DNA of 64,000 nucleotides, from NCBI GenBank assembly GCA_001600095.1, contig BCIX01000005.1, forward strand, positions 6,523 to 70,522, read 5' to 3'. Both the position numbers and the translations under genes were made by a program. The stretch comes from Bullera alba (taxonomy: Eukaryota; Basidiomycota; Tremellomycetes; Tremellales; Bulleraceae). The notes below the pieces were generated by a model, which made no database searches, was not told the origin of the DNA, and worked only from the letters and a program-made list of their open reading frames with translations. Within the stretch, counting starts at the first letter, position 1. Each line of letters begins with the position of its first letter. This document shows positions 8,695 through 34,341 of this stretch, piece by piece.

Positions 8695-10778
8695 ATGACC
8701 GACGTTCCCAGCCGTGGGCGCTTGCCACGATCAAGGAAGACACGGCCTTGTGATCGATGTCGCCGAGCCAAAACGCGATGCACGATCAATGCCGACGGAC
8801 CACCCTGCTCTCAATGCCGTGATACCGCAAGGCCATGTACATTCGAGCTGCCCTCGGTCCCGAGACCGACACCAGCTTCACTCAGATCCGAAGAACCATT
8901 CTCAGACAACTCAACAGAGGACCCGGAGCCTTCTGCCAAGCGGACGAGATATGAGGATCAGGAGATAGGATCTTCGCAAAGTGCACCGGAACCTAGAAAT
9001 GGCTTCGATAGCCTCTCATCGGACAAGTACGAGGCGCATGGTGAGCACTACACTGAAGGCTCTGCTGACTTGCTCAGTCTTGACGGTGGTCTTGACGGAT
9101 GATTTACTGCCTATCCCATCTGCTCGTCGGCCTGGTACAACAGCTCTCGAACCGCGGAGCGTCAAGCAAATCGTGAGCGTCTGTTTTCGATCTCGCTTAA
9201 TGAGCTCGATAGTCTGGAGATGAACGAAAGCCCGTATTTGCGATCATGCAACCTCGTGACAGTGAGTCTAGCACCAAGACATGTTGCTGATACCCCTAGC
9301 CGATGGATCACTTGGTTCTCGCAGCTTGAAACTACTCCGGCAATTCTTGACGGGAAGTCCGCACCTACTCAGCGAGAATCAACTGCTCGAGACGTATGAG
9401 AAGATGGTCCAACCTGCACTCCCGATACTCCCATGTCCTGTGGCGTCCTTACCGCCGTCAATTATGGGGATCGTTCTCACTAGCAGTCTGAGCCACTCGT
9501 CGACCACGAGAAGTATAGCAGCAGCCGCAGCGACGCTTCTCGATGCGGAGGATATGGACTTTGGCCTGAACAGTCTCCACACTGTCGTTCGGTCAATCCT
9601 CAGACTGGGTCTCCGCACTGATGTTAATAGTGGGAAGACATACATTCTCCTAGCACAGGTGAGGAATCGCACAAGAGAGCAGGATTGACCATTGCAGGCA
9701 ATCGCAGTGGCTCAGCTACAAGGCCTTCACATTGATCCTCTTCGATGGTCCATACCTAAGAGCGAGCAGCATTTGCGAATCACTTTGTGGTGGACGTTGA
9801 GTATGCATGATGCTTGGTTGAGCTTTCGTGAGTCGCTGCAGCGAGATCAGGTCTGACTCCCCAGTACACTCCCGACCATGCTTGATGCAAACCCGCAACA
9901 ACTCTGTTCCCCTACCTCGGCGGACAACACTCTCAGCTTCTCTACCCAGGAGTGCAGACTCCTTCATCGCTTCTTGTCGCTTGGTTCTCATTGTCCGGTC
10001 ATTGCAAGCTCGAGTATGCGTTCTCGATAGCGTTACTTCGAAAACCCGACAAGAACGTGCCGAAGATGTACTGCTCATCAAATCCAGGCTCAAGGTATTA
10101 CTGGACGAATGGTCAGACTGGCGATTGAACGTCTCGCGGTCAACTGGAGAAAGTAAGTGGTCGTGTTTGGGCATACGCTGATAGTGTATAGATTCCTTCC
10201 TTGTACATGCTCTCGGCCTGACCTGTATGCTGCAGCGAATCTACTTGGAACTGGTACATGGCCTCGGATCGCCATTTCAGCCTGGATCGGACGATCTCGC
10301 GCCGTTTGAGGAGATGGTGGACTTTATCCAGGGGATGTCGCATGATGATGTCGATGGCTACTACCTAGTCTGTGAGTTTAGACCATCAATCTAGCTGACG
10401 ATTCCAGACGCATCACATGTCGTATCTTCGGTCACTTCGTGCTTGTTTAGAATCGCTATGGCGGATCCATCTGGTCCCAACACCGTCGCTCTCGACCTCT
10501 TGAGAAGACTGGTTTCTCGCCTCAAGGATCTTAGCGTCAATACCGATTGGGATGTGCCTTCGGCCGCACTTCGACGTGTTGCTGCTATCGAAGCGAGACT
10601 TGGCGATTCGGCGGACATGGCACCGGTTCTCTGCGCTCTGCGAGGTGAAGTTCACGAAATCTCGGCGCCTCAGCTCGACGCTCTAGACATTCTACCGCAG
10701 GAGGACATGGCGCCCTGGACACGGCTAGAAGCGGACTGGACGATAGACGACATTTTTGCATCTTGGGCATTACAATGA
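8695..10778 (+). CDS. Zn2Cys6 transcription factor 1 (candidate hydantoin regulator)
   Basis: Fungal binuclear-cluster regulator of roughly 590 residues. Exon 1 encodes the DNA-binding domain CDRCRRAKTRC then CSQCRDTARPC, giving all six zinc-ligand cysteines, preceded by a basic stretch (RGRLPRSRKTRP). A Ser/Glu-rich linker follows. Later exons carry the fungal-specific middle homology region, recognisable from an LRITLWWTLSMHDAW segment. At least six short introns are needed, the first from about 9028 to 9064. The gene ends DDIFASWALQ with TGA at 10776-10778, only four bases from the stop of the convergent carbamoylase. It is the only regulator next to the hydantoin-type enzymes, so control of that cluster is a reasonable inference, not shown directly. 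Confidence 0.85.
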
Positions 10779-10782
10779 AAAT

Positions 10783-11964
10783 CTATGTTGGCTTTACCAC
10801 ACCCTCTCGGCTTACCAGACGCTCGTACATCTCTGGCCGACGATGCTTGGCGAGATTGAAGGTTCGCTCTTTGCCTTGGTTGCAGTCGTCCAGGTCGATG
10901 GTAGCTACAACCAGCTCATCCTCCTCGGTCTTGGATTCCGCGACGATATGGCCTTCTGGATCGACGATCATCGAGCCCGGTATCAATGGATGTTTCCCAT
11001 CATCGACACCCGCGCGCGCGGAGGTGATGCAGAACACTGTCAGGTCAGCGGAGATTTTTGGACTAGACTTACTAGAGTTGGTGTATGCATGTGCTTGGAC
11101 GACCACTGCAGTCGTTAGTCTACCATCCACCCGTGAAGAACCTACGCTTGTGATGAAACTATCCGTCAGCACTGCCAAATGTAACTTGACTCACCATTGC
11201 CTCGCTGTAAGCCTTCTCTCGGCTGATGTTCTGATCACCACCCCATAGTTGCGGGGCGTAGGCTGTGGTGTTGTAGCCGCAACACATGATCTCTGCTCCT
11301 TGTAGGCCGTAGCATCGCCAGCCCTCGGCCCATCTCCTGTCGTTACAGATGAGCTGTCCGAGTATGGGAGTTTCAGAGATCAATGATGGTGCTCTGAAAG
11401 CTTGGAAGCCGAGGTCGCCTGGGAGGAAGTATCTCTTTTCGAGCTGGTTCGTAGTATCCGGCTTCAGGTCGAAGGGCTCGACAGTTCCGGGTAGGTGGAT
11501 CTAGCTGTAAGCTAGGGTAGTCCGAGTCGACTCACCTTTCTGTATTTGCTGAGGACCTTTCCCGTCTTGTCTACGTATACACTGGTATTGTACCGCTTCC
11601 CAGGTACTCCAGTATCCTCGCCATAGCCAATTTGCACCTCGATTCCGAGCTCTTTTGCCCTGTCGAAGAACGGCTTGACATTGGGAGACTCGGTGATAGG
11701 GCAGTCTTCTGTGTCTAGCTCGAAGTAGGAGGCGAGCTCAGAGTCGTCGGGGATATAGTACCTCGGGAAGAAGGTGGTGAATGTTGTCTCGGCTACATGT
11801 CAGTCCTTGATTTCTCGATTGAACTCACGAAAGACCACCAGCTGAACATCCAAGCCCGCAGCCTCCTCTAGCAATCGACACAAGCGTTGTAGCACCTCTT
11901 TCCTCTCAGTCCACCGGTGGACAGCGCCAACTTGAGCTGCAGCAACCTTGAGTAAACGCGGCAT
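10783..11964 (-). CDS. N-carbamoyl-D-amino acid amidohydrolase (nitrilase superfamily)
   Basis: Carbon-nitrogen hydrolase predicted to cleave N-carbamoyl amino acids to amino acid, CO2 and ammonia in the cytosol. The catalytic Glu-Lys-Cys set is visible: Glu in PETTFTTFFPR, Lys in KYRKIHLPG and Cys in LICNDRRWAEGWRCYG. The last, with the following LQGAEIMCCGYNT, is close to the D-carbamoylase signature rather than to beta-ureidopropionase or aliphatic amidases. The ATG at 11964 gives MPRLLKVAAAQVGAVHRWTE, a normal nitrilase start. Five introns are inferred. One pair flanks a 13-nt microexon (11146-11158) that restores the family segment FHHKLVVQAHAYTN. The product is about 340 residues. Alternative substrates such as N-carbamoyl-beta-amino acids cannot be excluded. 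Confidence 0.87.
11146..11158 (-). other. 13-nt microexon of the carbamoylase
   Basis: Bounded by intron 11159-11194 (GTGAGT donor, GCTGAC branch, TAG acceptor) and intron 11106-11145 (GTAGGT donor, ACTAAC branch, CAG acceptor). It encodes Phe-His-His-Lys plus one base. Skipping it breaks the frame; including it gives MFHHKLVVQAHAYTNS, matching the D-carbamoylase family. Confidence 0.7.
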
Positions 11965-12035
11965 TTCGTCTCATACTGGGCATCGATGTTACAGAAGCAG
12001 CAGTGATATTTAGGAGGGCGAGATCAGCTCATCTG

Positions 12036-12045
12036 CCGCGGCGAG
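12036..12045. promoter_or_regulatory. CCGCGGCGAG element upstream of the carbamoylase
   Basis: CCGCGGCGAG about 75 nt upstream of the carbamoylase ATG. The same core CCGCGGCGA occurs in two other promoters of the cluster (13153 and 21519). CCG/CGG palindromes are typical Zn2Cys6 sites. A CCAAT box lies nearby at about 12086. Confidence 0.5.
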
Positions 12046-12118
12046 TGGTCTCGCCGGGAGGGCCGGATTCTGCCGGCTCAGTCAGCCAATAGGATTGATG
12101 CATCGATCGTAAATTCTC

Positions 12119-12835
12119 CTATCTACTGCTCCTTATCAACCCGGCCAGAAACTCTACGCCGACTCTAGCACCATCAATCACCTTGACTCGCCTTCCCTGT
12201 TCCGATGCTACTGTATGTACCCATGCATCCATCCCACTCATCCCAGCACAACCAAAGACGATAGTAGCCGCGCCCTTCTCCATCAGTCGTCGGACCGTCT
12301 CCTTCATGTTTCGCTCCACCAGTGCTTGATCGCCGTCCTGAAGATCCACCACCTGCAGACCTGTTGTAAGGACTCCTGCGAATCGAGTCGAGTGAGGCGT
12401 TCCAGTCATCGATGCTACCGCCTGCACGAGGTTTGGCTTGTCGCCTGTTCCGGTGGCTAGTATCCCAAATCTCTCCCTTGATGCGAGTAGAGCTGCTGAT
12501 ATCCCTGCATGCACTATACCCATGACCCTAGCGTCTAGGCCTCGTTGATCCAGGAGTTGTTGCAGAGTGTCGATCAGGGGATGTTCGGAGAAGCATGCTA
12601 CGAGAAACCCGTCGTATCGACCAATGTCCATCTCGGGTTGCTGAAGCTCTGACATGCATGCATAGCATGAGGCAGCAGCGGTTTCGACGTCTTTGATGCC
12701 GGGTGGACCGGTGAATGGGTTGAAGTAGTTTAGTTGCAGCTCGGTAGTCTCGAGTGATTGAAGTGCTTTTCGAAGAGCAGAGGTGATCGACTTTGACGAG
12801 TTCGGGTTGATCACCAGTATACGTAACGGCGACAT
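12119..12835 (-). CDS. Hydantoin racemase (Asp/Glu/hydantoin racemase superfamily)
   Basis: Single-exon, 238-residue protein starting MSPLRILVINPNSSKSIT, the conserved start of hydantoin/allantoin racemases (also the fungal DCG1 family). Two catalytic cysteines are expected. The first lies in VACFSEHPL and the second in FGCAGMSGM. The first motif differs from the more usual CFxDPGL form. The enzyme would interconvert D- and L-5-monosubstituted hydantoins so that a stereospecific hydantoinase can use both. It is divergent from the hydantoinase gene (501 bp between starts) and tail-to-head with the carbamoylase. The absence of introns contrasts with its neighbours. Allantoin racemase is the main alternative function, but no other ureide-pathway gene is present here. 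Confidence 0.85.
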   Translation of the reverse strand: MSPLRILVINPNSSKSITSALRKALQSLETTELQLNYFNPFTGPPGIKDVETAAASCYACMSELQQPEMDIGRYDGFLVACFSEHPLIDTLQQLLDQRGLDARVMGIVHAGISAALLASRERFGILATGTGDKPNLVQAVASMTGTPHSTRFAGVLTTGLQVVDLQDGDQALVERNMKETVRRLMEKGAATIVFGCAGMSGMDAWVHTVASEQGRRVKVIDGARVGVEFLAGLIRSSR

Positions 12836-13335
12836 GGTGTAGAGATGACTTCGGACACTCTCGGCCTGCGGTCGAGCCTGGAGGAGTGCTTCCGGTGGTT
12901 CGAACCCGAGATTCTGGGTACAGGATGAGAATTGTCTGTCGCGCTGAGTCCTCCAACAGAGTAGTGATCGCTGAGTCGAGTGACAGTACGTTGCAGAACA
13001 CAACTTCCGCCGTCGTCGACCCTTTCGGGCAACACGCTCGCCGGTTCGGATCGGTCATCGGTGACACATCGCTGCAACGCTAGGTCTCCTGGGGCACCGA
13101 CGTCCGACGCTGCGGTCAATCGTCCTATCAGCGTCCAGATCATAGAGCTTAGCCGCGGCGAAGAACCCGGCGAAGCGACAGTAGCCATCTGCGCTCTCGA
13201 TCTCGGTCCGGAGAAGACCGATCTCGTGAAGCAGCCGAGGGATGAGATCGACCTGCTGGAATGCCTTGACTGCTTGACTTCCTTGAAAGCTTGACTTCAG
13301 CGCTATACCTTGACTGCTGCACCATACTTGCCATC
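12836..13335. promoter_or_regulatory. Divergent promoter, racemase / hydantoinase
   Basis: 500-bp bidirectional upstream region shared by the racemase and the hydantoinase. It contains the CCGCGGCGAAG...CGGCGAAGC pair at 13153-13176. No gene of its own was seen; the open frames here run antisense or lack start and splice support. Confidence 0.6.
13153..13176. promoter_or_regulatory. CCGCGGCGAAG + CGGCGAAGC direct repeat
   Basis: CCGCGGCGAAG at 13153-13163 followed by CCGGCGAAGC at 13167-13176. The two CGGCGAAG cores begin 12 bp apart. A near-identical arrangement lies at 21519-21544 in the NCS1/aldolase promoter. Confidence 0.55.
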
Positions 13336-15115
13336 ATGTTCGACCTTGATCTCATTGTGAAGAACGGTATCGTCGTCACATCGTCGGTGAGTCGACCGAC
13401 CTATTGATGGGCTGATGGGCTGATATGGCGGTAGGACGAAACGGCTTGCGATATTGGGGTGAAAGATGGTGTCGTGGTTTGCTTGGCCAAAGATCTGCCG
13501 GTCCCAGATGGCTGTAGAGTGATAGATGCCGAAGGTGGATATGTGACAGTGAGTACATCGCTAGAGCTCTGCTAATGCTCAGCCTGGTGGGATCGACTCT
13601 CACGTACATATCGGTCAATCTGCTTCTGGGGCGAGATCTGCGGATGACTGGACTACTGGCACAAGAGGTGCCCTGTGTGGTGGTACTACGACAGTGGTGG
13701 CTTTTGCGGTACAGAAGAAAGGGGAGAAGGTAATGCCTGCGGTCGAGGCATACCATCAATTGGCGGATCAGAAGACCCACTGCGATTACAGCTTCCATGC
13801 GATCATCACCGACCCTACCGAACAGGTCGTCACCGAGGAGATCCCACAGATGGTCAAGTTCGGAATCACATCGGTCAAGGTGAGTTATTCAAGAGAGATT
13901 CTTGCTGACCTCCCCAGATCTACATGACGTACCCTCTCATGAAGCTCGATGATCGGCAGATTCTCGATATCCTAGCCTGTGCCCGGCAGCAAGGTGTTAC
14001 AACCATGGTTCACGCCGAAAATGCCGATATCATCGACTGGATGGCTTCTCGACTCATCAAGCAAGGCCTCGTAGACCCAGAACACCACGGAACAGCTCGA
14101 CCTGCCATAGTCGAGGACGAAGCCACCAACCGAGCCATCGCATTATCTGAAGTGGTAGACGCACCGATGCTGCTAGTACATGTCAGCACGAAGGAGTCGA
14201 CCCGAGCGATCAGAAGAGCACAGACTAGAGGACTTCCTCTATATGGCGAGACTTGTCCACACTTCGCGCTTCTCACAGCGGAGAGAATGAAAGCTCCAGG
14301 CTTTGAGGGGTGAGCAGCTGATATCGCTGGTCATGCTGACGATTAGTGCCAAATGCATCTGCGCCCCACCACTACGAACCGACCCAATGGATAAAGCGGG
14401 AATCTGGGAGGGACTCGCCAATGGAACGTACACGACCTTTTCGTCCGATCACGCACCTTACAATTACGATGATGAGCTCGGCAAGAAGGTGAGTCAGTGT
14501 GGCCGACTCAGCTGATTTCATCACAGATGGGACTTATCAACAATCCTACGAACAACGCCCGAGGCAATGCCTTCAAGGTACCCAATGGTCTTCCTGGAGT
14601 CTGCACGAGAACCCCACTGCTATGGTCAGAGGGTGTACTGAAAGGCAGGATATCCCGCCAACGATTCGTCGAGCTCAACTCGAGCAATGCTGCCAAGCTC
14701 TACGGTACGTTGTCAGCTCGACGACTCGGCTGACAACATAGGGATGTACCCAAAGAAAGGGGCTATCCAGCCTGGGTCCGATGCCGACTTTACGATATTC
14801 CGAGCTCCCGAGCAGCGTAAAGACGTCACCATCACCCAGGACATGCTACACCACGGTGCGGATTACACCCCTTATGAGGGTATGATGATCAAAGACTGGC
14901 CGAAACTCGTCATCCTGAGGGGAGAAATTGCATATGACGGAATGTCAAACAAGGTGATAGCACCTGTAGGCAGAGGGGAGTTCATCAAGCGATCATTCAG
15001 CACATTGCCGTGAGTGACCTGTACAAGTTGATCCATAGTGCCTAATCTGATATCACTCAGCGGACCTCGTGGTTTCTCCGATCATTGGCTCAACGACTTC
15101 AATCCGTACAAGTAG
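13336..15115 (+). CDS. D-hydantoinase / dihydropyrimidinase
   Basis: Cyclic amidohydrolase of about 500 residues in eight exons (first exon 13336-13386). It opens the hydantoin or dihydropyrimidine ring to an N-carbamoyl amino acid. All metal-centre motifs are visible in order: SHVHIG, the carboxylated Lys in SVKIYMTYP, His in MVHAENADI, His in LLVHVSTKES and Asp in SSDHAPY. The substrate-site segment NNARGNAFKVPNGLPG and the C-terminal TGxxA-like region (NSSNAAKLYGMYPKKG) are also present. The C-terminus ends in GPRGFSDHWLNDFNPYK. Linkage to a racemase and a D-carbamoylase favours a hydantoinase role over pyrimidine breakdown, but dihydropyrimidinase is the same family and cannot be ruled out. 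The stop codon falls inside a 16-bp tandem repeat. Confidence 0.93.
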
Positions 15116-15167
15116 AGGGTAGTACAAGTAGAGGGTAGTACCAGCAGAGGGTAGTACAGTCGTAGAG
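15107..15167. repeat. 16-bp tandem repeat spanning the hydantoinase stop
   Basis: Units tacaagtagagggtag (15107-15122), an identical copy (15123-15138), a variant taccagcagagggtag (15139-15154) and a partial fourth. The first copy supplies the last codons and the TAG stop of the hydantoinase. Confidence 0.85.
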
Positions 15168-15297
15168 TATGCATCAGCCTTTGACTTTCCTTCGTGATGA
15201 CGACCCCGCTCTCATGAATCTCAGGTTGAGTCTCTTGTCATGTCACCAATCGCCCAGATAGCCAAAAATGCATCACCAGGCTGCAGCAAATCTATAT

Positions 15298-18051
15298 CTA
15301 CGAAACGGTGGGACTCGGGCAGTGATCTGGGTATCCAGGTCGCTTGTTGCCAAACCAGCTCGGGAAGGGAACTCCAGCTCCGTTGCCCGCAGCACCAAAG
15401 ACGGCGAAGGACAAGATGAACATGACGAACAGACTACCACCATCGAAAGCGGCAGTGACGAGGTAACTGTACTCGCTGAAGATCTTGGGTCGATATAGTC
15501 GGAGATACCATTGAACGTATATTGGTACCAGTAAACCGGTGAGAATTGTGCAGGTCTGTGGTGATATGACCGCAAGATATCCCGAGAACACCAAGACGAG
15601 GGGAGTGTTGATGCTCTTGAGCTCGAACTTGCCGACCCGGGGTATAAGTCGAGTAAGCCCAGCATGTAGGAGGACAACACCGACACCAATGACCAGTCCA
15701 ATCGGGACGATGTAGTAGTCGGTACCTTTCTTGAACAGGTCTCTCGAGAGCGCCCAAGACATGGCTTGGGTGTTTTGTCCTTGGAAGTAAGCACCAGACC
15801 AGGCGTAGGAGCCGTTTGTCGTGAGGAGGAGCTCTCGATGAGAAGCTATGATCGAGGTCGATACCGCATAGTTGATGAAGAGTCCGATGATGGTACCGTA
15901 GGTTTGGGTGAGAAACATGATTCGAGGAGGGATTTTGACTGGTGCTATCGTCAGTATGCTTCTACGAGAGGACACTTCCATACTCACGATACTCTCCCAT
16001 CTTGAGGTCACTGGCCATGTTCAAACTCTGCGAGATGACACTGTGCGACCAAGCGGAGAAGTAGAGGTTGGCCAGTGGTCGTCCAGGTAGAACGGCTCCA
16101 GCCACAATCTTCATCAAGTTGTTGGTTGCAATACCACTTCCGTATCGAGAGTAGAGGATAGTCGACTATGACAACGTAAGCTGAGTATCTCGCTAAACCC
16201 GAGTCATAAGATTCACTCACGAATGGAGCAACAAATGCGCCGACCAATAGAGCGATGAAGTATGACCATACCGGCATAGTGATAGATTGAGTGGTCGTCA
16301 CGATGACACCGAGAACGACGGCAAAGGTGAGGATGCCCACATACCACCAGTACGGTACCTCTCGGTATCGCGCTGCCATGGCTCGATGGTGTCGGTCTTC
16401 GTGAACGCCGGATCGTACAGCTTTGATCGACGTCCAGACGTCTTTCCGCCAGAACAATATGACGTGAGTGATCAGAGCACCGATCTACGGACTGCTTCAG
16501 TATTGTATACTAAACCATTGATGAAAGGGGTAAACTCACCGCAGCGTTACCGACAGTCAAGGAGTAGGCGTACGAGCCCGTTAGTCTCGGCAGACCATAA
16601 GTCTCCAAGGCTTGTCGGTCGAGGATACCGTTGATGAACACAGTATTGCCGACATAACGGCCTCCAGATTCCGTGCGAAGGTTGGACGCCATGAAAGGCA
16701 GCGATCTCGATCTCCAGGTGTTGGTGTAAAAGATACCGAGGTAGGCACAGTAGCAGATCAGGATACCGAAAGCCGCATTTAGCTAGAGACTACCGTTAGT
16801 GTCGTCTCCATTTAACCGCTCTGGATTGATGCTTACATGATAACCCAGAGGCTGAGAGGTGGCGGAGGATGTAATATACTGCCAGTCAAAGCTAAGATGA
16901 AGCGAGTTAGCCCAGGATGATCTTTGACCATTCTTTACTCACGAGATGTTGAGAATGCCAAGACCTTCGTTGCTCAGAGAGCCTCCGAAGATGTTGGTCA
17001 ATGTCGCGGCTTTCGCCCCAGTCGCCTTCATCGACGCGAGACATGGGATTGACACCGAGTTCAACCAAGGCATGATGTATGCCGGAAGTGGTTGATAGAG
17101 TGCCATGGCGCCGAAGGAGTACCAGAAGAGTCGCAGCCTCTTGGACGATCGAACGTCTTCCCAGTGAAGTCCTTGTAGGGTACTGACGACGGGGATGTTT
17201 GACCAAAAGACGGACTCGGGAGCTATGATGTCTAGTCAGTCCGCTGCACACTCCGAGTCAGACATTCACTCACCCCAAACAGTTACAGGTCTCAGCAGGC
17301 CAGTCAATCCATAGCCGAAGAGACCGATAGAGAGCGTAGCCAAGATGACGGTCGCTGGAGTAATGGGATTGTCGACGTAGAATAGCCTTTGGACAGTGAA
17401 AGTGACGATACTGAGCGAGCCCTGTGAAGCACTGGAAGCGGTGATTGCGGCGATAGCGTGTTCCTTCAGACCAAAGTCGTGAGGGTTGATAATCTTCGCG
17501 AGAGTGATGTACAGGGGCAGGCGAGTGGCTTCGGGGTTGAGAGTTCGGAAGCGAGATTCGAGCCGATCACCTCGTGGAAAGAGCCTCGCCCAGCCTTTGC
17601 CGATGAAGAAGATGACGAGAACGATGAAGGATCCAGTCACAGAAGCCGAGGTCGGTTTGAACTGTCAATGCATTAGCGTATTACAAGACAAGTAACCACG
17701 ACGACTCACATTGTAGATCTGGTTCATTGCAGCTTGGAAACATGCAAAGCCTGTACCGAGTACAGCACTTCGGAAAGTCAAGACCGGATCTCCATCGTCT
17801 CTCAGTGACAAGAGATGCTCGCTGGCGTCTCGGCCGCTGTCGATAACTACCCCTCCATCGCCGAAACCAGTCTTGTCGAGGGTATTGACAGCCTCTTCGG
17901 GAGGACCAAGACCAACGGTGTTGGGGTCGTCTGTGATGTACTTGTCCTTCTCCTCATCTTGAGGTGTGAGCGGAGGGCTGGTGCTGTTATCGCTCGCTGA
18001 AGGAGCAGGTGTTGACTCGGTCTTGCGCCAGAATTTGAGCGTGGACGGCAT
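15298..18051 (-). CDS. OPT-family oligopeptide transporter
   Basis: Large multi-spanning membrane protein of about 775 residues with roughly eight short introns. It starts MPSTLKFWRK with a hydrophilic Ser/Asp-rich N-terminus. The OPT signature NPHDFGLKEHA follows the first membrane segments, and the C-terminal motif SWFGNKRPGYPDHC matches the WFGN...DHC ending of fungal OPT proteins. Many helices are visible, for example GSFIVLVIFFIGKGWARLF and YIVPIGLVIGVGVVLLHAGL. OPT proteins import small peptides (or glutathione, siderophores) with protons across the plasma membrane. It converges on the hydantoinase with 182 bp between stops. A role in taking up the pathway substrate or peptide-like hydantoin precursors is only suggested by position. 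Confidence 0.9.
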
Positions 18052-19531
18052 TTTGGGCTACCGGAGCCTGCGGGTGGTCGGGGCTAGAGCACAGGGGGGA
18101 AGAGGGGTGGGCTGGAGGATCCATTGTCAGATACTTGTCGGGAATATATGTCTTTCGGTAGGAGATCAGCTATCAGTGCACAATTAGCAATATTCCGATC
18201 CGAAGCATCCAAGTCGCCATATACACGACTAGCTGCACTCGACGATATGCGCTTGGAAGCAATGCTCACCATGTCACCTTTCGAAGCGTTATCGAGCCAG
18301 ACTGACGCCATACTCAGCGACGGTGCAGAAGTCGAGCGTTGAAAGAACTGCTGCCAAGTTTTGCTTGGCACGTACCGCGCGGGCGAATTGGACATCGGTA
18401 TTAACGACCTCGTTCGGGTATCGCAAAACGACGGGCAAAGGCGGATGTTCACTTGAGCTTGACGCCATTTGCGCCTTGTGGAGATCTGGTACTCCTCAGG
18501 CCAAGAGTAAAGCAGGCTAGCACGACATTGGAAGAGCCTGCCATCGTCCTGGCAGCTTGGCTGCAAGTATCGTCTGATAAGACCGACTTCCGAGCTTGTC
18601 CAGAGTTCTACCTGCTTTTAGTTGGTCATCCGTGAGGTTCAGGACCGTCGCCCCGCTCACTGTCAAACCGCTTGTTGCCAATCAGACCGGCACAAATGTA
18701 CACCGGGTCCAGCATCGAAGACGTTTCACCGCTTATCTTCCGTCCAAGCGTTCGGGCGGCCGGTCTTATTGACGGTCTATGCCAACTGAGTTGAAGTATG
18801 CTGACGGCCTTCGGTCATCCCCGAGGCCTACGTAGAGGTGTCACTCCGTGCATCGGATCCGTGGAGGCATGCCGTTGTCGACCACACCCGGTTCTGAGCT
18901 TTGAGTTGCGGCAACCGACGAGTGCGAGGTAGGGACTAGTCGAGAAGGTCTGATTGGTCTGAGCTGAGCTCGAGTGTAAGATCTCAGGCGAGAAATGGGA
19001 TTAATCGATTTTAATGGTTGTCAGTAATTCGTCGGAAGTACAGTATTCTGTGCACTACCGGTGCGATCGCTCACTTCGCTCGCTGCCTGTTGAGGATTTT
19101 GGGATGGCTGTGATGCTCGCATGCTTTTGTGATCGACCGCTTGATCATCTATCTCGCATGTAACACTCGCAGGATCCGCGAGCTCTCGCTTCAATACTCT
19201 TCGACTGCTATCCCGAACTTTCGGTCGACGTGGAATCACCCAGGAGCCCAGTTGATGCAGGATCTCATAACGAAACTCCCCGATCGATCGCGTGGACGAC
19301 AGTCGAGAAACTAGGCTGGATCTCGGGGTGGGATGTTCACCTCTCCTAGAAAAGCCTCGAGTGGTCTTTGTTGCGATGCTCAGTGGAGAGTGCGTATCAC
19401 GCTAGGCAATACCTCTGCTCAGTCGAAGCGACTAATGTGGAAACCCGGATCGTCTGTTGACAACCGATACATGGCAAAGCGAAACAAGATATATCGCCGG
19501 AAGACTGGTACTAACTCTAATAACATCCCTT
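18052..19531. other. 1.5-kb gene-free stretch
   Basis: Lies between the OPT start and the NCS1 stop. Only short open frames without family features or splice support are present, the longest on the minus strand at 18084-18566. A loosely related CCGCGCGGGCGAA sequence occurs at about 18371, roughly 320 nt upstream of the OPT gene. Confidence 0.4.
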
Positions 19532-21369
19532 CTAGATCTTCTTCTCATCGTCCATATCCAAACCACTCTCAGTAGGATACGTCGCGTGTACCTCCTCAAC
19601 CTCGCTCGCCGGTACCATCTTCCTTGGAAAGAGGACATTGCTGAGGTAGTAGACGAGACTCGAGACGACGACACCGAAAGGCCAAACCACGCAGTAGATG
19701 TAGGTGACTCCCCGGGGTATCGAGGTGCTCTTTCCTTGAATACCTCTAGCGAGACCGGGAATGACCGGAGCGATACTACTCAACGTAAGCTGCAAACTAC
19801 TTTCTGGTGTCTGAACTGACTCACGCTACAGCAAAGGCCACCACAGCTCGCAAATTCACACCGTGCGTGTACCAAAGGTCACCACCTGGACCAAGCTTGT
19901 AAAGCCGAGCAAGGTTGAGTTTGTTCCTCCTGATGATGTAGTAGTCGGTGATCATGATACCGAAACATGGTCTAACAGTCAGTTCCGCTCCGTTTCGAAT
20001 CACTCACCCCAGGAAGACCGAATAGCCCGACAAGAAGGCCGTGAAGCTCGCAGCATTGTTCTGGATATTCCAAGGGGTAGTGGCCAGAGCGACGATGATG
20101 CAGATGTATTGACCTCGTCTGATGTCGATGAACCGAGGGAAAGCGAGCATGAGATCATTGGCGACGGCGGTAGTGTTGGCCGAGATGTTTGTGGCCAAGA
20201 CGGAGAAACCCCAACATAGGCCCACGAAGAACTTTGGTGCTCGATCCATGAGAGCGGCAACCTGGAGAGGGTTCCATGTGGCTTTGCCATAGATGACCTC
20301 GACACAGGAAGTCACCACCACTCCGAGCATGGCACAGAGGGTGACCAGGAAGGTGAGCGAGATGATATTGGTCCACACGACAACCCTGGACGACTTGGCA
20401 TATCGAGTAAAGTCGGCAACTGATCGTCAGCAGAGCTTCTCACTGTAGTACTCACTGTTCAGCGCCAAAGTGGCTTTAGGAGCAATCGCAGCGGACATGG
20501 CAGAGAAGAAGATGACCGCCGCGGGATTACCATTCGATGTTCGGGTGGGTTGAGTCCACATAGGTCCGAATCCGTGAGCTCGTCCAACTGCCCAGCCGAA
20601 GAGCGATAGACCGAAGATTGGCATGACGACGATCTTGATCATGAAGAGGTATCGAAGCTTGGGCATAGGAATCCACAGAAGCGGCAGCTGAATGATGTAG
20701 AAGATGAAGAAGCATAACAGCTGAGACGATGTGACGTTGGCGGAGGCTGGCAGGTGATTCGGGAAGTTGATGAACGATGGCCAGATAGCCTGAAGCATGA
20801 CCTGTACACATTGACCGCCCTGTGGGATAGGATCAGCTCCGGACGTCGTATACCACTCACTTGGTACGTCTGTGTTCCGGCCCAGATGATAGCAGCGACA
20901 CTTCGGCACACGAGAGCGAGATAGACACCTCTTTGGCCGAAAGATGATCGGGCAAAGACAGGATAGTTGATACCGTAGACGCAACCGACGTAGCCTGATG
21001 CGGCGTTGGCAACTCCTACGAGGACTAGACGAGCAGCTTCAGCTATTGTTCATGCCAATGACCCATTTAGCTGCACTTACAATGGCCCAAGAGCACAGCA
21101 CCGATGGTCGCACCTGGCGACAATCCAGCGGCGATACTGGATGAAGCGACTTGGTATTGCGAGATACCGAAAGCTTCGGCGATCCAGAAACCGAGCAGGG
21201 AAGGGATACCCCACGTTCGGTTACCGCCGTCCTTGAGGGGAGGGATGGGAAGCATATCGGGCTCGACTTCGACTTCATCGTGCTGATTGCTGCCTGGGAC
21301 GCTCAAAGTCACCGTAGTGGTGACCTTGTCGATCCGAAGCTTGAAGTTGGGTTTGCGCAAGTGTACCAT
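19532..21369 (-). CDS. NCS1-family permease (hydantoin/allantoin/uracil type)
   Basis: Nucleobase:cation symporter-1 family protein of about 520 residues with six or so introns. The N-terminus carries the family region NRTWGIPSLLGFWIAEAF...QYQVASSSIAAGLSPG (helix 1). Later segments include SGYVGCVYGINYPVFARSSFG and VADFTRYAKS, the conserved xDFTRY motif of this family, and ITDYYIIRRNKLNL near helix 10. It ends with an acidic cytoplasmic tail (SGLDMDDEKKI). NCS1 members carry uracil, allantoin, cytosine, thiamine or, in bacteria, hydantoins (Mhp1). The neighbourhood makes hydantoin or another ureide the best guess here. It is divergent from the class II aldolase gene with 314 bp between starts. 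Confidence 0.92.
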
Positions 21370-21683
21370 TGCTGTGGATCTAGTGATGGATCTGTGAGTG
21401 CGGGCATCTTTGACTTTGCTAATTGTCGTCGGGTTATATGTACGTACGCTAACTAGGCTTATCTCTTATCAGTGCACGCTTTTAGGCCAATCAGGGAGGA
21501 GGGATAGAGACTAATTCCCCGCGGCGAAGCATCGGCGAAGCAACTCCCCGAGGCGTGGGATGCATATGGTGTTGGCCGAAGTGCAGACGGGTGGCGTACG
21601 ACCTTATCCATGTCAAGAGACAGCTTGTTGAAAGTCTACAGAATCTACAGTACCTCACCAACAGACTCATACCACAAAGCACA
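21370..21683. promoter_or_regulatory. Divergent promoter, NCS1 / class II aldolase
   Basis: Bidirectional 314-bp region with a CCAAT box at about 21487 and the CCGCGGCGAAGC...CGGCGAAGC pair at 21519-21544. It also holds the 5' leader of the aldolase gene. Confidence 0.6.
21519..21544. promoter_or_regulatory. CCGCGGCGAAGC + CGGCGAAGC direct repeat
   Basis: CCGCGGCGAAGC at 21519-21530, then CGGCGAAGCAAC at 21533-21544, with core starts 11 bp apart. It matches the element in the racemase/hydantoinase promoter. Confidence 0.55.
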
Positions 21684-22711
21684 ATGGCACCTATCGCAAT
21701 CCACAGCGCCGAGCCGGTAGCTCCAGCTAGCAAGACGATCACCACCAAGGCCAGCTTCCACCAAGATGTCCGAGAACTCGCAGAGAACCCCCTGCATCGA
21801 ACATGGCGCGGTAACGCCGAGGGTACATTACGAATCGACTCTTATCCCAGTTTCATGAACGCCACAACAGAGGAGGATCTGCTGAAGAAGCGTCAATGGG
21901 TGAAGGAGCACCTGGCGATCGCCTTTCGATTCTGGGGAAACCTGGGCTATGGCGAGGGCATCAGTGGCCATATCACTGTTCGAGTGAGTTAGCATGTCAC
22001 CGAGTAATGATCCTTCTGATGTCTCATAGGACCCTATTCTCCGTGATCACTTCTGGATGAACCCCTTCGGCGTCCACTTCAAGAGCATGACCGTATCGAA
22101 GCTGGTCTTGGTAACGCCCGAAGGTTACGTTCACAAACTCGGCGCACAACTGCCCATCAACGTGAGTGTTCCGCTAGTCTTGTACGAAGTCTGCTTACCG
22201 TTGTCAGATGGCTGGTTTCTACATCCACTCAGCTATCCACCACGCTCGTCCCGAAGTCGAGGCCGCCGGTCATTGCCACTCCCTCCACGGCAAAGCCTGG
22301 TCTTCTTTCGGTCGACCCGTCGAGATCACTACTCAAGACTCTTGCCTGTTCTACGACAATCAAGCGGTTTATCACAACTTTGGTGGTATCGTCCTCGCCG
22401 CAGAGGAAGGTGCCAATATCGCTCGCGCTCTAGGTCCCAAGAACAAGTGCTGTATCCTCCAGAACCACGGTCTTCTCACACTGGGAGCAACGGTCGACGA
22501 GGCGGCATACCTCTTCTCAGCACTGGACAAGCAATGTAAGGTTCAGCTCATGATCGAAGCGGCGGCAGCGAATGGTATTCCAAAGACTGTCATCGATGAC
22601 GAAGACGCCAAGTTTACCGCTGCGACGATTCAGTATCATGAGAATGTCTACTACAACCTTCACCCAGAGATCGAACTGATTCGGGAGCGAGAACCCGCTG
22701 TGCTCTCGTAG
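21684..22711 (+). CDS. Class II aldolase/adducin-domain protein
   Basis: About 310 residues in three exons (about 21684-21983, 22030-22160, 22207-22711). The ATG at 21684 (MAPIAIHSAEPVAPASK) is the first in frame; upstream in-frame codons give only a GTG. The class II aldolase fold is shown by GYGEGISGHITVRDP, the zinc-ligand pair in GHCHSLHGKAWS and the third His in ILQNHGLLTLGATVDEA. Relatives cleave or epimerise small sugar phosphates, decarboxylate or are uncharacterised; many fungi carry this paralogue without known function. It shares a divergent promoter with the NCS1 permease, so a downstream or accessory step in the hydantoin route is plausible but unproven. Confidence 0.88.
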
Positions 22712-27731: not shown

Positions 27732-28681
27732 ATGACCTCCCTCCAGGACAAAGTATGCGTGGTGACAGGGGCAGCAGGAAGTAAGTAAGAGCATGAAGTG
27801 CACTGCTGACTTCAGATATCGGTAGAGCGGTAGTCGCTAGATTGCTCGAGGCAGGAGCCGTGGTCTTAGCGGTAGACATTGCAAAGCCGGATTTGAAAGG
27901 GGCAGATGGGTTTGCATGTGATTTGGGGGATAGAAACTCGATACACGAGTTTGCTAACGAGGTCAAGAAGAAGTGAGCAGAGTGTGTGAGGGTATGAGCA
28001 TCGCTGATGATTAGCGTAGGTATGGCTCGATTTACTGCTTGGTGAACAATGGCGCCCTAGGTGGATCAAGAGTACCTATTCATGAGAAGACATATGAGGA
28101 GTACAATTCCGTCATGGATGTCAAGTGCGTACTATGGTTGAAATATGATGCTGATATACATATAGTGTTCGAGGCTCCTATCTACTGATACAAGAGTTCA
28201 TCCGGATACACCTCGATACCAAGTCTCAAGCGCTGGTCATCCTCAACATAACATCCCTGGTTTCTACCCGACCCGCAGAGCTGGCAAGCATCTACTCGAT
28301 GTCCAAGGCAGCTTTGAGAAGTCTGACACAGAGCGTCGCCAAGGAGTATGGAAGGCAAGGAGTCCGTTGTGTAGCTATAGCTCCGGTGAGTGTCGATATC
28401 GAGGCCGTCGCTGACTCTCGAAGGGGTTCATGGAGATTCCGAACATCCAAGGATTCGACCAAGAGGTGAGTGAGCTGGAGTGATCGCGCTGACGATAGAC
28501 CTTTGCCCAGCGCATAAGCGAGGTGCCATTGGGCCGTGGAGGAAAAGTGGAGGAGATAGGCCATATGGTTGCGTGGTTGGCGAGCAGCGAGGCGGCTTAT
28601 GTGAACGGGACAGAGGTCGTCAGTGAGTCGCAAACGATTGGGTCGAGCTGATGGGTAGTCGACGGTGGCCTTCTGGCGTAG
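27732..28681 (+). CDS. Short-chain dehydrogenase/reductase
   Basis: Classical SDR of about 240 residues with five or so short introns, start MTSLQDKVCVVTGAAGNIG. The NAD(P)-binding TGxxGxxG region (VTGAAGNIGRAV), the NNGALGG stretch replacing NNAG, the catalytic Ser region NITSLVS, the YSMSKAALRS Tyr/Lys motif and the C-terminal VDGGLLA are all present. An acidic Asp at the end of strand 2 (VVLAVDIAKP) suggests NAD rather than NADP. The substrate is unknown. Its neighbours (rhodanese and unknowns) do not indicate a pathway. Confidence 0.9.
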
Positions 28682-31898: not shown

Positions 31899-34341
31899 CT
31901 AAACCGAGATCCACCTAGCCATCCATTTGTTCACGATCTGAAGGAATGTCAGTCAGTTCGAGCAGGACTAGGAGTCTGACTCACCTCTTGAGCCTCAAGA
32001 ACCAGACCCTCGTCGAGGAGAAGCTGCACAACACCTCTGACCGAGGACTCGAGGGCGGAGAAGATCCAAGCGTGGTTGATGGAAGTATGCTCGCCGATAC
32101 TGCAAGAGTTAGCGAGAATCGGGTTCAGATCACTCACAAGATGTGGTTCGAGTGGGTCTTGTGGTACTCTGGCATGTACTTCTCGTGCTGGCCGGTATAA
32201 GGTGAAGCCCAAGATCCCGCCTGGTGTCGCTCAATGCCCCAGCACACTCTGTCGTAAACACCGGTGTATTGCTCCGCGGCGATAGGACCATGGATCTCAT
32301 TCATGGCGTCGACGACCAGTTGAATGTGTTCCTCCTCGGTGAGAGCTTGGGCGAATGGCCCAGTGGGAGTGTTGTAAGCGGCTAGAAGGGCGCCTGGACC
32401 GGTGCCGTTGATGTTGTAGGCCGGGTAGCAGAATGATCCGATTCCAGGAAGATCGGTACTTCCACAACCTCCGTAGATCGGTTGGTCGATGTGCTCCCAG
32501 AATCGAGTCTCGTATAGGAGAGAAACTTTGCAGGCGAAAGCGTATCCGAGACCGGTGATGGCCTCGGTGATGACGGGGTTGAGGGACGGCAGTCGCCATA
32601 GCCTAGCGACGGAGAATGGGACGGCGACCAGAGTCTTGTCGTAAGATCGGCTTTGGGTGGTACCATTCTCTTTCCAGTAGATACCAGTCTGACCAGTGGT
32701 CTCGTTGAAAGAGAGACGCTCGATTCGTCGCGAGTAGGAAAGTCGGTCGTCCACGATAGGGTGGAAGGCTTCTGCGAGGCGGGTAAGACCTTTGTCGATA
32801 GTCTTCCATTCGGATGCAGCGAAGTAGACACCGTCGTAGATGTCATCCCAGAGAGTGCCTGCTCGGGTCAGCGAAACTCGATATAGCTTTTATTGAACTT
32901 ACCAGAACCACCAACGGCCGATACGTCGTCCCAGCCTAGGCCTTGAGATCGAAGGAAGGAGCTCTCGGAGAAGTCCATCAAGCCGTCCTCTGGTCGTCAG
33001 CTCTATATGCTATAGGGTGACTCACCGATGGCTTGCTTGTGCGCCTTGAAGAGGTTGGTGGCTGCCTCTCTGCTCTTGTCCGCGTAGCCGATGAAGTCGG
33101 TCAGAGCGTCTTCGGCAGCGACGAGAGCTGGATCCTCCTCGTGTGACTCTCCACTGGAGGCATTGGCGGCCAAGGCGGCGTACTGGCTACGTCGGGGTAC
33201 AGTGCCATCTGCGTTTCGTAGTCCACCAGTGTATTGGTAGGTGCTGTAATCTGTCAGCGGAGCCCGTTCATGCGAATACGGGAGACTCACTTGACATTGC
33301 TCTGGATCCACTTGATGAAGTTCACTTGGTAAGCTGGGTCCTCGTTGGCGTTCATCTCGTTCAAGACGTCGGCGAGCTGGAAGACCAGCTTGTGGTCTTG
33401 AATCTCCAGCGTCTCGTTGGTGTCGGCGTAGGTGAGGCTGACGGGGAATCGCATTGGTCTGAGGCGTCAGCGAGAGTCGGGTCAAGGATGACTCACCCCA
33501 TCTCCTGGTACTGATAGTCTTCAGGCGCAGTGTCGTTGAGGTAGGCGGTTCGAAGTCGACTACGCAAAGTCAGCATTGTTTCAGAGTAAAGGGGGAGGAT
33601 ATGCTCACCCGCCGATCCTCTCGGAACTCTCGGAGATCTCCCAGTTGGTCATGCCCACCGAGTCGAGCAGCAAACCCGACATCAGACCGGCCATACCACC
33701 ACCGACAATACCAATCTTCTTGTCTTTGCTACCGGCGACGAAGCTGTTGTTGTTGGCTTTCAGGTATGCGACACCGTCGAACCATGGGCCATAGGGGTCG
33801 TTGAGCCATTCGAGGGTGTTTCGCTTCTTCATAGGGGATTGGTGAACGGCGATAGGGGCGGATCGGCCGAGCAAACCCAGCTCGGAGAAGGCATGCAGAC
33901 ATCCTCCAGTGGGAAGGTCGACAGGTGTGAGCCAGACGAATCGAGTTCTACGATACTTGTAAGTGCTTCTGAGTGATCGGAAGGCGGCTATAGGCGGAAC
34001 ACTTACGGCTTGTCATCGTAGCTCCTTGCGTCGAAACGCCCAACTTCATGGTGGGATCCAGAGTGATGAGTGAGATCACACTCGCCATACACCACGATCA
34101 CCTCGGTGTTGACGTGCTCTGGCCTGTACTCGAGCTCAAAGTTGGTCGCCCCGTCTGCATGGACAGATGAAGGACTGGTCGAATAGGAGAGAGAGTCAGC
34201 TTTTCGATCTTCCGTCTTCGGATCGGACAAGTCCGAAATTCGGATTTACCTTTTGAACGAGATCCCCGATGGTGCTGGCGACGCAGAGGCCGTAAGCGCA
34301 AGCAGTGTGGTAGCAGCGAGGAGGGAGTGTGTCGTGCGCAT
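31899..34341 (-). CDS. Secreted L-amino-acid-oxidase-like flavin amine oxidase
   Basis: FAD-dependent oxidase of roughly 620-650 residues with about nine introns. The ATG at 34341 starts a signal peptide (MRTTHSLLAATTLLALTASA). The dinucleotide-binding motif is IGIVGGGMAGLMSGLL, followed by the ISESSERIGG glycine-rich stretch. The C-terminal FAD/substrate motif is GEHTSINHAWIFSALESSVRG. Several N-glycosylation sites (NETT, NGTT, NGTG) fit secretion. It would oxidise amino acids to imino acids with release of H2O2 outside the cell. It is head-to-head with a secreted RidA-family gene. A polyamine or other amine oxidase is the main alternative. Confidence 0.87.

Follow-up and report, generated by a model that had tools for sequence, protein, structure and literature searches.

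A candidate cyclic-ureide gene cluster in Bullera alba with linked hydantoinase-type and D-carbamoylase-type genes

The window analyzed here is a stretch of 64,000 nucleotides from the fungus Bullera alba (bases 6523-70522 of contig C5, BCIX01000005.1, which measures 1.77 Mb in a genome of 19.4 Mb and 7 contigs), and it holds seven neighboring genes whose possible role in the breakdown of hydantoins or related cyclic ureides is the subject of this study. An earlier note, made from the sequence alone, had described the seven gene families as lying together with no unrelated gene between them. We obtained one intact predicted model for each gene, spliced or intronless and without internal stop, and all seven proteins passed the Pfam gathering cut-offs, which bears out the first part of that description. 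The second part agrees with the output of the automatic predictor, which placed no further gene between the seven and is itself not sensitive. The spliced models came from a small predictor for which the 64-kb window had served as training set, and its low sensitivity was evident, as it missed the regulator and racemase genes and shortened the carbamoylase gene. The regulator (TF1), the racemase (RAC) and one intron of the amidohydrolase (HYD) were placed by hand, and the carbamoylase (DCase) was modeled from a hand-given start codon; forced spliced models for TF1 and RAC were over-spliced and were dropped.

The cluster begins with TF1, a Zn2Cys6 transcription factor on the forward strand (8695..10778, 605 residues, 8 exons; PF00172, PF04082), which is the weakest of the Pfam assignments (Zn_clus 21.5 vs. 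21 bits, Fungal_trans 24.7 vs. 23). It converges on DCase, an N-carbamoyl-D-amino-acid hydrolase-type nitrilase on the reverse strand (10783..11964, 332 residues, 6 exons; PF00795), with the two stop codons 4 bp apart. RAC, of the Asp/Glu/hydantoin racemase family (Dcg1-like), follows on the reverse strand (12119..12835, 238 residues, intronless; PF01177) and shares a divergent promoter of 500 bp with HYD, a D-hydantoinase/dihydropyrimidinase-type cyclic amidohydrolase on the forward strand (13336..15115, 498 residues, 8 exons; PF01979). Beyond these lie an OPT oligopeptide transporter family protein (reverse, 15298..18051, 796 residues, 8 exons; PF03169) and an NCS1 family permease (reverse, 19532..21369, 533 residues, 6 exons; PF02133), the latter divergent by 314 bp from ALD, a class II aldolase/adducin family protein of the PRK06208 type (forward, 21684..22711, 311 residues, 3 exons; PF00596). 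The native-looking introns reported earlier were found in six of the seven genes, RAC being the exception; they measure 34-59 nt and have GT..AG ends. GC content at third codon positions was 0.53-0.65 in the cluster genes vs. 0.57-0.73 in the remaining genes predicted in the window.

The clearest family assignment was that of DCase. When compared with PDB sequences, its 11 best matches out of 35 were all N-carbamoyl-D-amino-acid hydrolases (E 1.2e-70 to 7.7e-68), and the first match outside the D-carbamoylases came at E 3.4e-16. An archaeal nitrilase with beta-ureidopropionase among its labels scored 2.2e-11. Over the aligned columns DCase is 45% identical to 6LED. We aligned it with its best 120 homologues, many of them from metagenomes (118 over their full length and two fused proteins truncated at residue 310), and found Glu47, Lys126, His128, Cys171, Asn172, Arg174, Arg175 and Trp176 (6LED numbering) in all 120, so that the Cys-Glu-Lys triad is intact in the window protein and throughout the set; His214 was kept in 105. 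NCBIfam models, which were run on DCase, RAC, HYD, NCS1 and ALD, gave no match above cut-off for DCase. An AlphaFold2 model of the homologue P0001 (80% identical to DCase; 26 rows) had a mean predicted local distance difference test score (pLDDT) of 81.7, and a Foldseek search with this model of the homologue, not of the window protein, returned D-carbamoylases at ranks 1-19 of the 50 listed. By sequence and by the fold of its homologue, DCase is thus firmly predicted to belong to the N-carbamoyl-D-amino-acid hydrolase family (EC 3.5.1.77). Among the matches listed, its nearest named homologue is from Kwoniella dejecticola (80%), and that of HYD from Naematelia encephala (75%), both of which we take to be tremellomycetes. 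As query against its own genome the DCase protein matched itself alone; other CN_hydrolase genes exist there. In two records (P0083, and P0091 of Friedmanniomyces simplex) a DCase is followed by a C-terminal racemase domain, either as a genuine fusion or because neighboring gene models were merged.

HYD passed the D-hydantoinase/dihydropyrimidinase model TIGR02033 (485.1 bits, cut-off 393.25) and stayed below the cut-off of the PRK13404 dihydropyrimidinase subfamily (NF009941; 616.3 vs. 647 bits). Residues H62, H64, K154, H186, H242 and D319, presumably the metal ligands, are intact and were present in 12 of 12 aligned rows. RAC kept both conserved cysteines, which we presume to be active-site residues, and passed no NCBIfam model; among solved structures it matched two putative hydantoin racemase sequences and the allantoin racemase 5lfd (E 1.2e-9), and among its best 120 of 173 matches metagenome proteins came first (95% at most), with Dioszegia hungarica at 54%. 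ALD passed PRK06208 at 283.4 vs. 255 bits. NCS1 fell below the cut-off of TIGR00800 (331.9 vs. 353.1 bits), and the only solved structure that it matched was Mhp1. The earlier note had drawn attention to this bacterial hydantoin carrier; the family is indeed the same, but the overall match is weak (E 4.7e-13), and although Trp117, Gln121 and Asn318 of Mhp1 align to W144, Q148 and N348 of NCS1, equivalents of these pocket residues are reported in other NCS1 carriers as well (PMC4195764).

To place the cluster among other fungi we used, for each of HYD and DCase, the best 120 of thousands of matches after clustering at 90%. Fourteen species were named in both lists, 13 of which were tabulated, and in nine of the 14 the two proteins came from contigs of equal size, namely Tremellales sp. 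Uapishka_1 (76 kb), Kwoniella shivajii, Phellopilus, Dendrothele, Stereum, Sporobolomyces salmoneus, S. koalae, Rhodosporidiobolus poonsookiae and Rhodotorula kratochvilovae. Equal size was taken as the same contig, and the long ones (up to 1.7 Mb) say little by themselves. In a tenth species, R. nylandii, the contig sizes differ and the locus tags JCM10213_000884 and _000888 are 4 apart; elsewhere the tags were 3, 2 and 5 apart, and in R. kratochvilovae, where the two strain prefixes differ, 8 apart. For R. toruloides, S. pararoseus and Exophiala xenobiotica the comparison runs across different strains or merged records. Naematelia, Cryptococcus sp. DSM 104549, Stygiomarasmius, Tetrapyrgos, Fistulina, Flagelloscypha and several other fungi appear in the HYD list and not in the DCase list, and the reverse is true of some DCase species, mismatches which may be due in part to the choice of the best 120 matches and to the clustering.

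Phylogenetic trees gave a consistent picture. The HYD tree held 58 rows (41 of the 120 listed homologues, 12 of 80 bacterial loci, 3 PDB sequences and both HYD genes of the genome), and one branch (values 100/99) separated the fungal proteins and the yeast dihydropyrimidinase from 16 bacterial rows and two classical enzymes. Within the fungal side, the window HYD fell in a basidiomycete group of 28 rows (100/99) and the second HYD gene, on contig C3, in a separate fungal group of 10 rows (97/97). In the DCase tree (62 rows, including 55 of the 120 listed homologues and 6 bacterial rows) the fungal proteins formed one group (100/100) and so did those of basidiomycetes (33 rows, 100/99), with the window DCase in a tremellomycete part of 8 rows (100/99). 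Both trees have a small bacterial sampling, midpoint roots and several long branches. A recent transfer of HYD and DCase from bacteria was considered and rejected, because the relatives that score best with them come from fungi and cluster into fungal groups. The basidiomycete clades would fit long vertical inheritance, and given the 16 and 6 bacterial rows an old transfer from bacteria may have taken place.

The promoters of the cluster share a sequence element. Four copies of the 9-mer CCGCGGCGA were counted in the window, one upstream of DCase, one in the RAC/HYD intergenic region, one in that of NCS1 and ALD, and one inside an oxidase gene at 32 kb; the NCS1 gene on contig C4 also contains a single copy. 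In the three promoter copies a second half-site follows 5-6 bp on, inverted in the DCase promoter (CGGCGA-N6-TCGCCG, 12036..12056, 72 bp upstream of the start codon) and direct in the RAC/HYD (CGGCGA-N6-CGGCGA, 13153..13176) and NCS1/ALD promoters (CGGCGA-N5-CGGCGA, 21519..21541). The doubled element thereby covers five of the seven genes through three promoters, and it was not found in those of OPT and TF1. Genome-wide, CGCGGCGA-N4-8-CGGCGA occurred twice and CGCGGCGA-N4-8-TCGCCG once, all three in the cluster; for the reversed control patterns the counts were 4 and 0, respectively. Since the patterns were drawn from these very sites, their presence here is given by construction and only their absence from the rest of the genome is informative. 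A scan of five promoters for Zn2Cys6 sites found several of 84 motif-and-spacing combinations above expectation (uncorrected for the number tried), for example CGG-N7-CGG (6 observed vs. 0.9 expected), CGG-N14-CGG (7 vs. 1.6), CGG-N12-CCG (3 vs. 0.6) and CCGCGG (3 vs. 0.3), and GATA sites were near expectation. Six 8-mers were common to at least three promoters (2.46 expected; 8% of random sets as high), one 9-mer (0.34 expected; 18% of random sets) and no 10-mer. The shared element is a suggestive hint of common control.

With moderate confidence, we propose that the cluster serves to salvage nitrogen from 5-substituted hydantoins or from cyclic ureides closely related to them. NCS1 would import the ring compound, RAC would interconvert its two enantiomers, HYD would open the D form to an N-carbamoyl-D-amino acid, and DCase would strip off the carbamoyl group as CO2 and NH3 to leave the D-amino acid. 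This product could be deaminated by D-amino-acid oxidases encoded elsewhere: the genome has 14 DAO-family matches, and of the 8 loci read two carry D-amino-acid-oxidase-like motifs. TF1 would probably act on the CGG half-sites of the shared CCGCGGCGA element. The substrates, the transport specificity, the regulation and the fate of the D-amino acid we infer, and OPT and ALD are candidate members of the unit. We consider the hydantoin reading the best single one, given the firm placement of DCase among the D-carbamoylases and given that the rival routes either have their own genes in this genome or lack a step.

Several findings weigh against this proposal. One is the active site of DCase, where His143 is replaced by Gln in the window protein and in 119 of the 120 homologues. 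In a Pseudomonas enzyme, the ligand contacts named are Lys127, Gly132, His144, Cys172, Asn173, Arg176 and Pro199 (PMC11503299), and since the histidine at position 143/144 is thus a contact, the fungal substrates may differ from the bacterial ones. The earlier claim that all catalytic motifs are intact was borne out for the DCase triad, the HYD ligands and the presumed RAC active-site cysteines. Gln at this position was also present in one (L090) of the five bacterial DCase loci read, the sixth being cut off by its contig, which indicates that the bacterial family is itself variable here. The P0001 model gives no geometry for the residue, as most of the loop that holds it (134-161) is below pLDDT 50.

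The identity of HYD is a further point of this kind. D-hydantoinases and dihydropyrimidinases fall under the single model TIGR02033, and the closest solved relative of HYD is the yeast dihydropyrimidinase 2fty (E 3.9e-116), presumably Pyd2 of Lachancea/Saccharomyces kluyveri, followed by D-hydantoinases. Sequence alone cannot set HYD as a hydantoinase rather than a dihydropyrimidinase, and the cluster could then break down dihydropyrimidines, with HYD acting on dihydrouracil or dihydrothymine, DCase hydrolyzing beta-ureido acids and NCS1 importing pyrimidines. In line with this, 2fty lies on the fungal side of the HYD tree, on a long branch, most named homologues among the matches listed are labeled dihydropyrimidinase by their sources, and NCS1 carriers include uracil carriers. 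We nevertheless find this route improbable: DCase matched the PDB chains named beta-ureidopropionase only at E 4.7e-6 and 2.6e-5, as compared to 1e-70 for D-carbamoylases, and unsubstituted dihydropyrimidines would leave the racemase without a role. Moreover, no dihydropyrimidine dehydrogenase was seen in an exon-by-exon genome search, which could miss one, as the sole Fer4_20 match reads on inspection as glutamate synthase.

RAC and NCS1 can also be read as parts of a second allantoin or ureide route, in which NCS1 would carry allantoin, RAC would racemize it, HYD would act as an allantoinase and DCase would hydrolyze allantoate. The match of RAC to 5lfd points that way, as does the yeast DAL allantoin cluster (DAL1, DAL4, DCG1) with its NCS1 permease and racemase-like Dcg1. 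Yet HYD fails the allantoinase model TIGR03178 (230.3 vs. 357.85 bits), which an allantoinase on contig C2 passes at 429 bits, and the genome also has an allantoicase on contig C1 and another racemase-NCS1 pair, so that we regard this route as very improbable. Together, the separate allantoinase and allantoicase and the dehydrogenase not seen argue against allantoin or uracil breakdown as the task of the cluster.

The other racemase-NCS1 pair lies on contig C4 (C4:79000-98800, L012/L013), where a second PF01177 racemase, 46% identical to RAC, adjoins a divergent NCS1 gene that passes TIGR00800; it is likely allantoin- or hydantoin-related. The second HYD-type gene (C3:1849000-1868800, L014/L015; 527-residue model) is transcribed divergently from a PuuE-allantoinase-like gene, which scores 314 bits with TIGR03212 and so stays under its cut-off (424.6). 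An NCS1 gene lies about 4.6 kb downstream, and the locus is another candidate cyclic-ureide cluster. M20-family genes exist in the genome and could include other carbamoyl hydrolases.

Further difficulties for the hydantoin reading concern gene context and promoters. We kept 80 loci, some of them short contigs, of 589 bacterial relatives of HYD, and only six had a DCase match in the fetched flanks at E 1e-5 (RAC seven, NCS1 two, ALD one). When genes within 5 kb were clustered and inspected, an Asp/Glu-racemase-superfamily-like protein was seen in 18 of the 80 loci, its representative being a long open reading frame partly in a spurious frame, a PuuE-like protein in nine and a hydantoin-racemase-like protein in six. 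The first two are thus commoner neighbors than the DCase, and the bacterial context does not single out the hydantoin route. In the fungi, Pseudohyphozyma bogoriensis, one of the 14 shared species, has HYD and DCase on different contigs. Of the synteny in relatives that the earlier note had raised, a linkage of HYD and DCase was seen in other basidiomycetes; no RAC relative from a species with the linked pair was among the best 120 of 173 matches; the three-enzyme set may therefore be special to few fungi, and the distribution of RAC looks patchy. The similarity of the shared element was modest too, as 25 of 400 dinucleotide shuffles and 23 of 400 random-stretch sets did at least as well as the best local alignment among the ten promoter pairs (p about 0.06 in both controls).

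Possibly, then, there is no seven-gene unit at all, and HYD and DCase, perhaps with RAC, cooperate while OPT, NCS1, ALD and TF1 are chance neighbors. The RAC matches and the OPT and TF1 promoters without the element are in line with this. We think it unlikely, as the doubled element stands in both the NCS1/ALD and RAC/HYD promoters with its exact pattern nowhere else in the genome, and the TF1 and DCase stop codons are so close together (4 bp).

Within the hydantoin reading, the HYD-DCase pair would be the old core, and RAC, the permease and the other genes perhaps lineage-specific additions. We suggest, tentatively, that the pair could represent an ancient D-ureide catabolism of the fungi's own, kept linked in several classes of Basidiomycota, with a Gln-143 DCase pocket for some natural cyclic ureide. 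Here it would have gained a racemase and a permease, together with a Zn2Cys6 regulon dedicated to it that has the doubled CGGCGA element. Hydantoinases and D-carbamoylases are used in industry, and their natural substrates are little understood. The conserved fungal pair, with permease, racemase and regulator genes linked to it, offers a setting in which this question can be tested genetically, and it could supply eukaryotic enzymes for D-amino acids.

Elsewhere on the contig, the stretch ahead of the window (C5:1-6522) has N in its first 600 bases and no predicted gene. Beyond the cluster we noted, by inspection, a short-chain dehydrogenase-like gene (27732-28681, 229-residue model) and, by its cysteine motif, a candidate second Zn2Cys6-type regulator (29355-about 31900). 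The oxidase gene at 31899-34341, 9 kb from the cluster, encodes a flavin amine oxidase (PF01593) with an N-terminal signal-like stretch that resembles a secreted L-amino-acid oxidase.

How does the cluster compare with known systems? It has in common with the yeast DAL cluster a cyclic amidohydrolase, an NCS1 permease and a Dcg1-type racemase, but HYD is not an allantoinase by TIGR03178, and allantoinase and allantoicase here lie on other contigs. To our knowledge the DAL cluster has no DCase. As to the yeast dihydropyrimidinase, 2fty is the best solved match of HYD and on the same side of the tree, but outside the basidiomycete clade whose members are DCase-linked, and the window DCase is not of the beta-ureidopropionase branch. 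A VNII-specific six-gene cluster of Cryptococcus neoformans, compared by description only, is likewise fungal, has a transcription factor, a transporter, a hydrolase and a dihydropyrimidinase, and varies between lineages (PMC5586382); the passage on it mentions an oxygenase and an amino acid transporter but neither a racemase nor a carbamoylase. The bacterial hydantoinase process comprises hydantoin racemase, D-hydantoinase and D-carbamoylase (PMC7431475). As the earlier note had put it, the cluster has these same three enzyme families, intact and adjacent, along with their catalytic residues and a permease of the NCS1 family, to which Mhp1 also belongs; the DCase part of this likeness is strong, but HYD is not separable from dihydropyrimidinase by sequence. 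It differs in its introns in six of seven genes, its Zn2Cys6 regulator, the added OPT and ALD, the fungal clades of HYD and DCase and the Gln in place of His143. DCase and HYD agree with their families on most, not all, of the features tested, and the bacterial analogy would hold in the sense of "works like". The earlier note knew of no fungal cluster of this make-up, and we too found no description of one in the full-text literature searched, most subscription papers lying outside its scope. Each gene family is already known in fungi; new are the doubled promoter element, the evidence of a separate allantoinase and allantoicase with no dihydropyrimidine dehydrogenase seen, and the linkage of carbamoylase and hydantoinase genes in other basidiomycetes.

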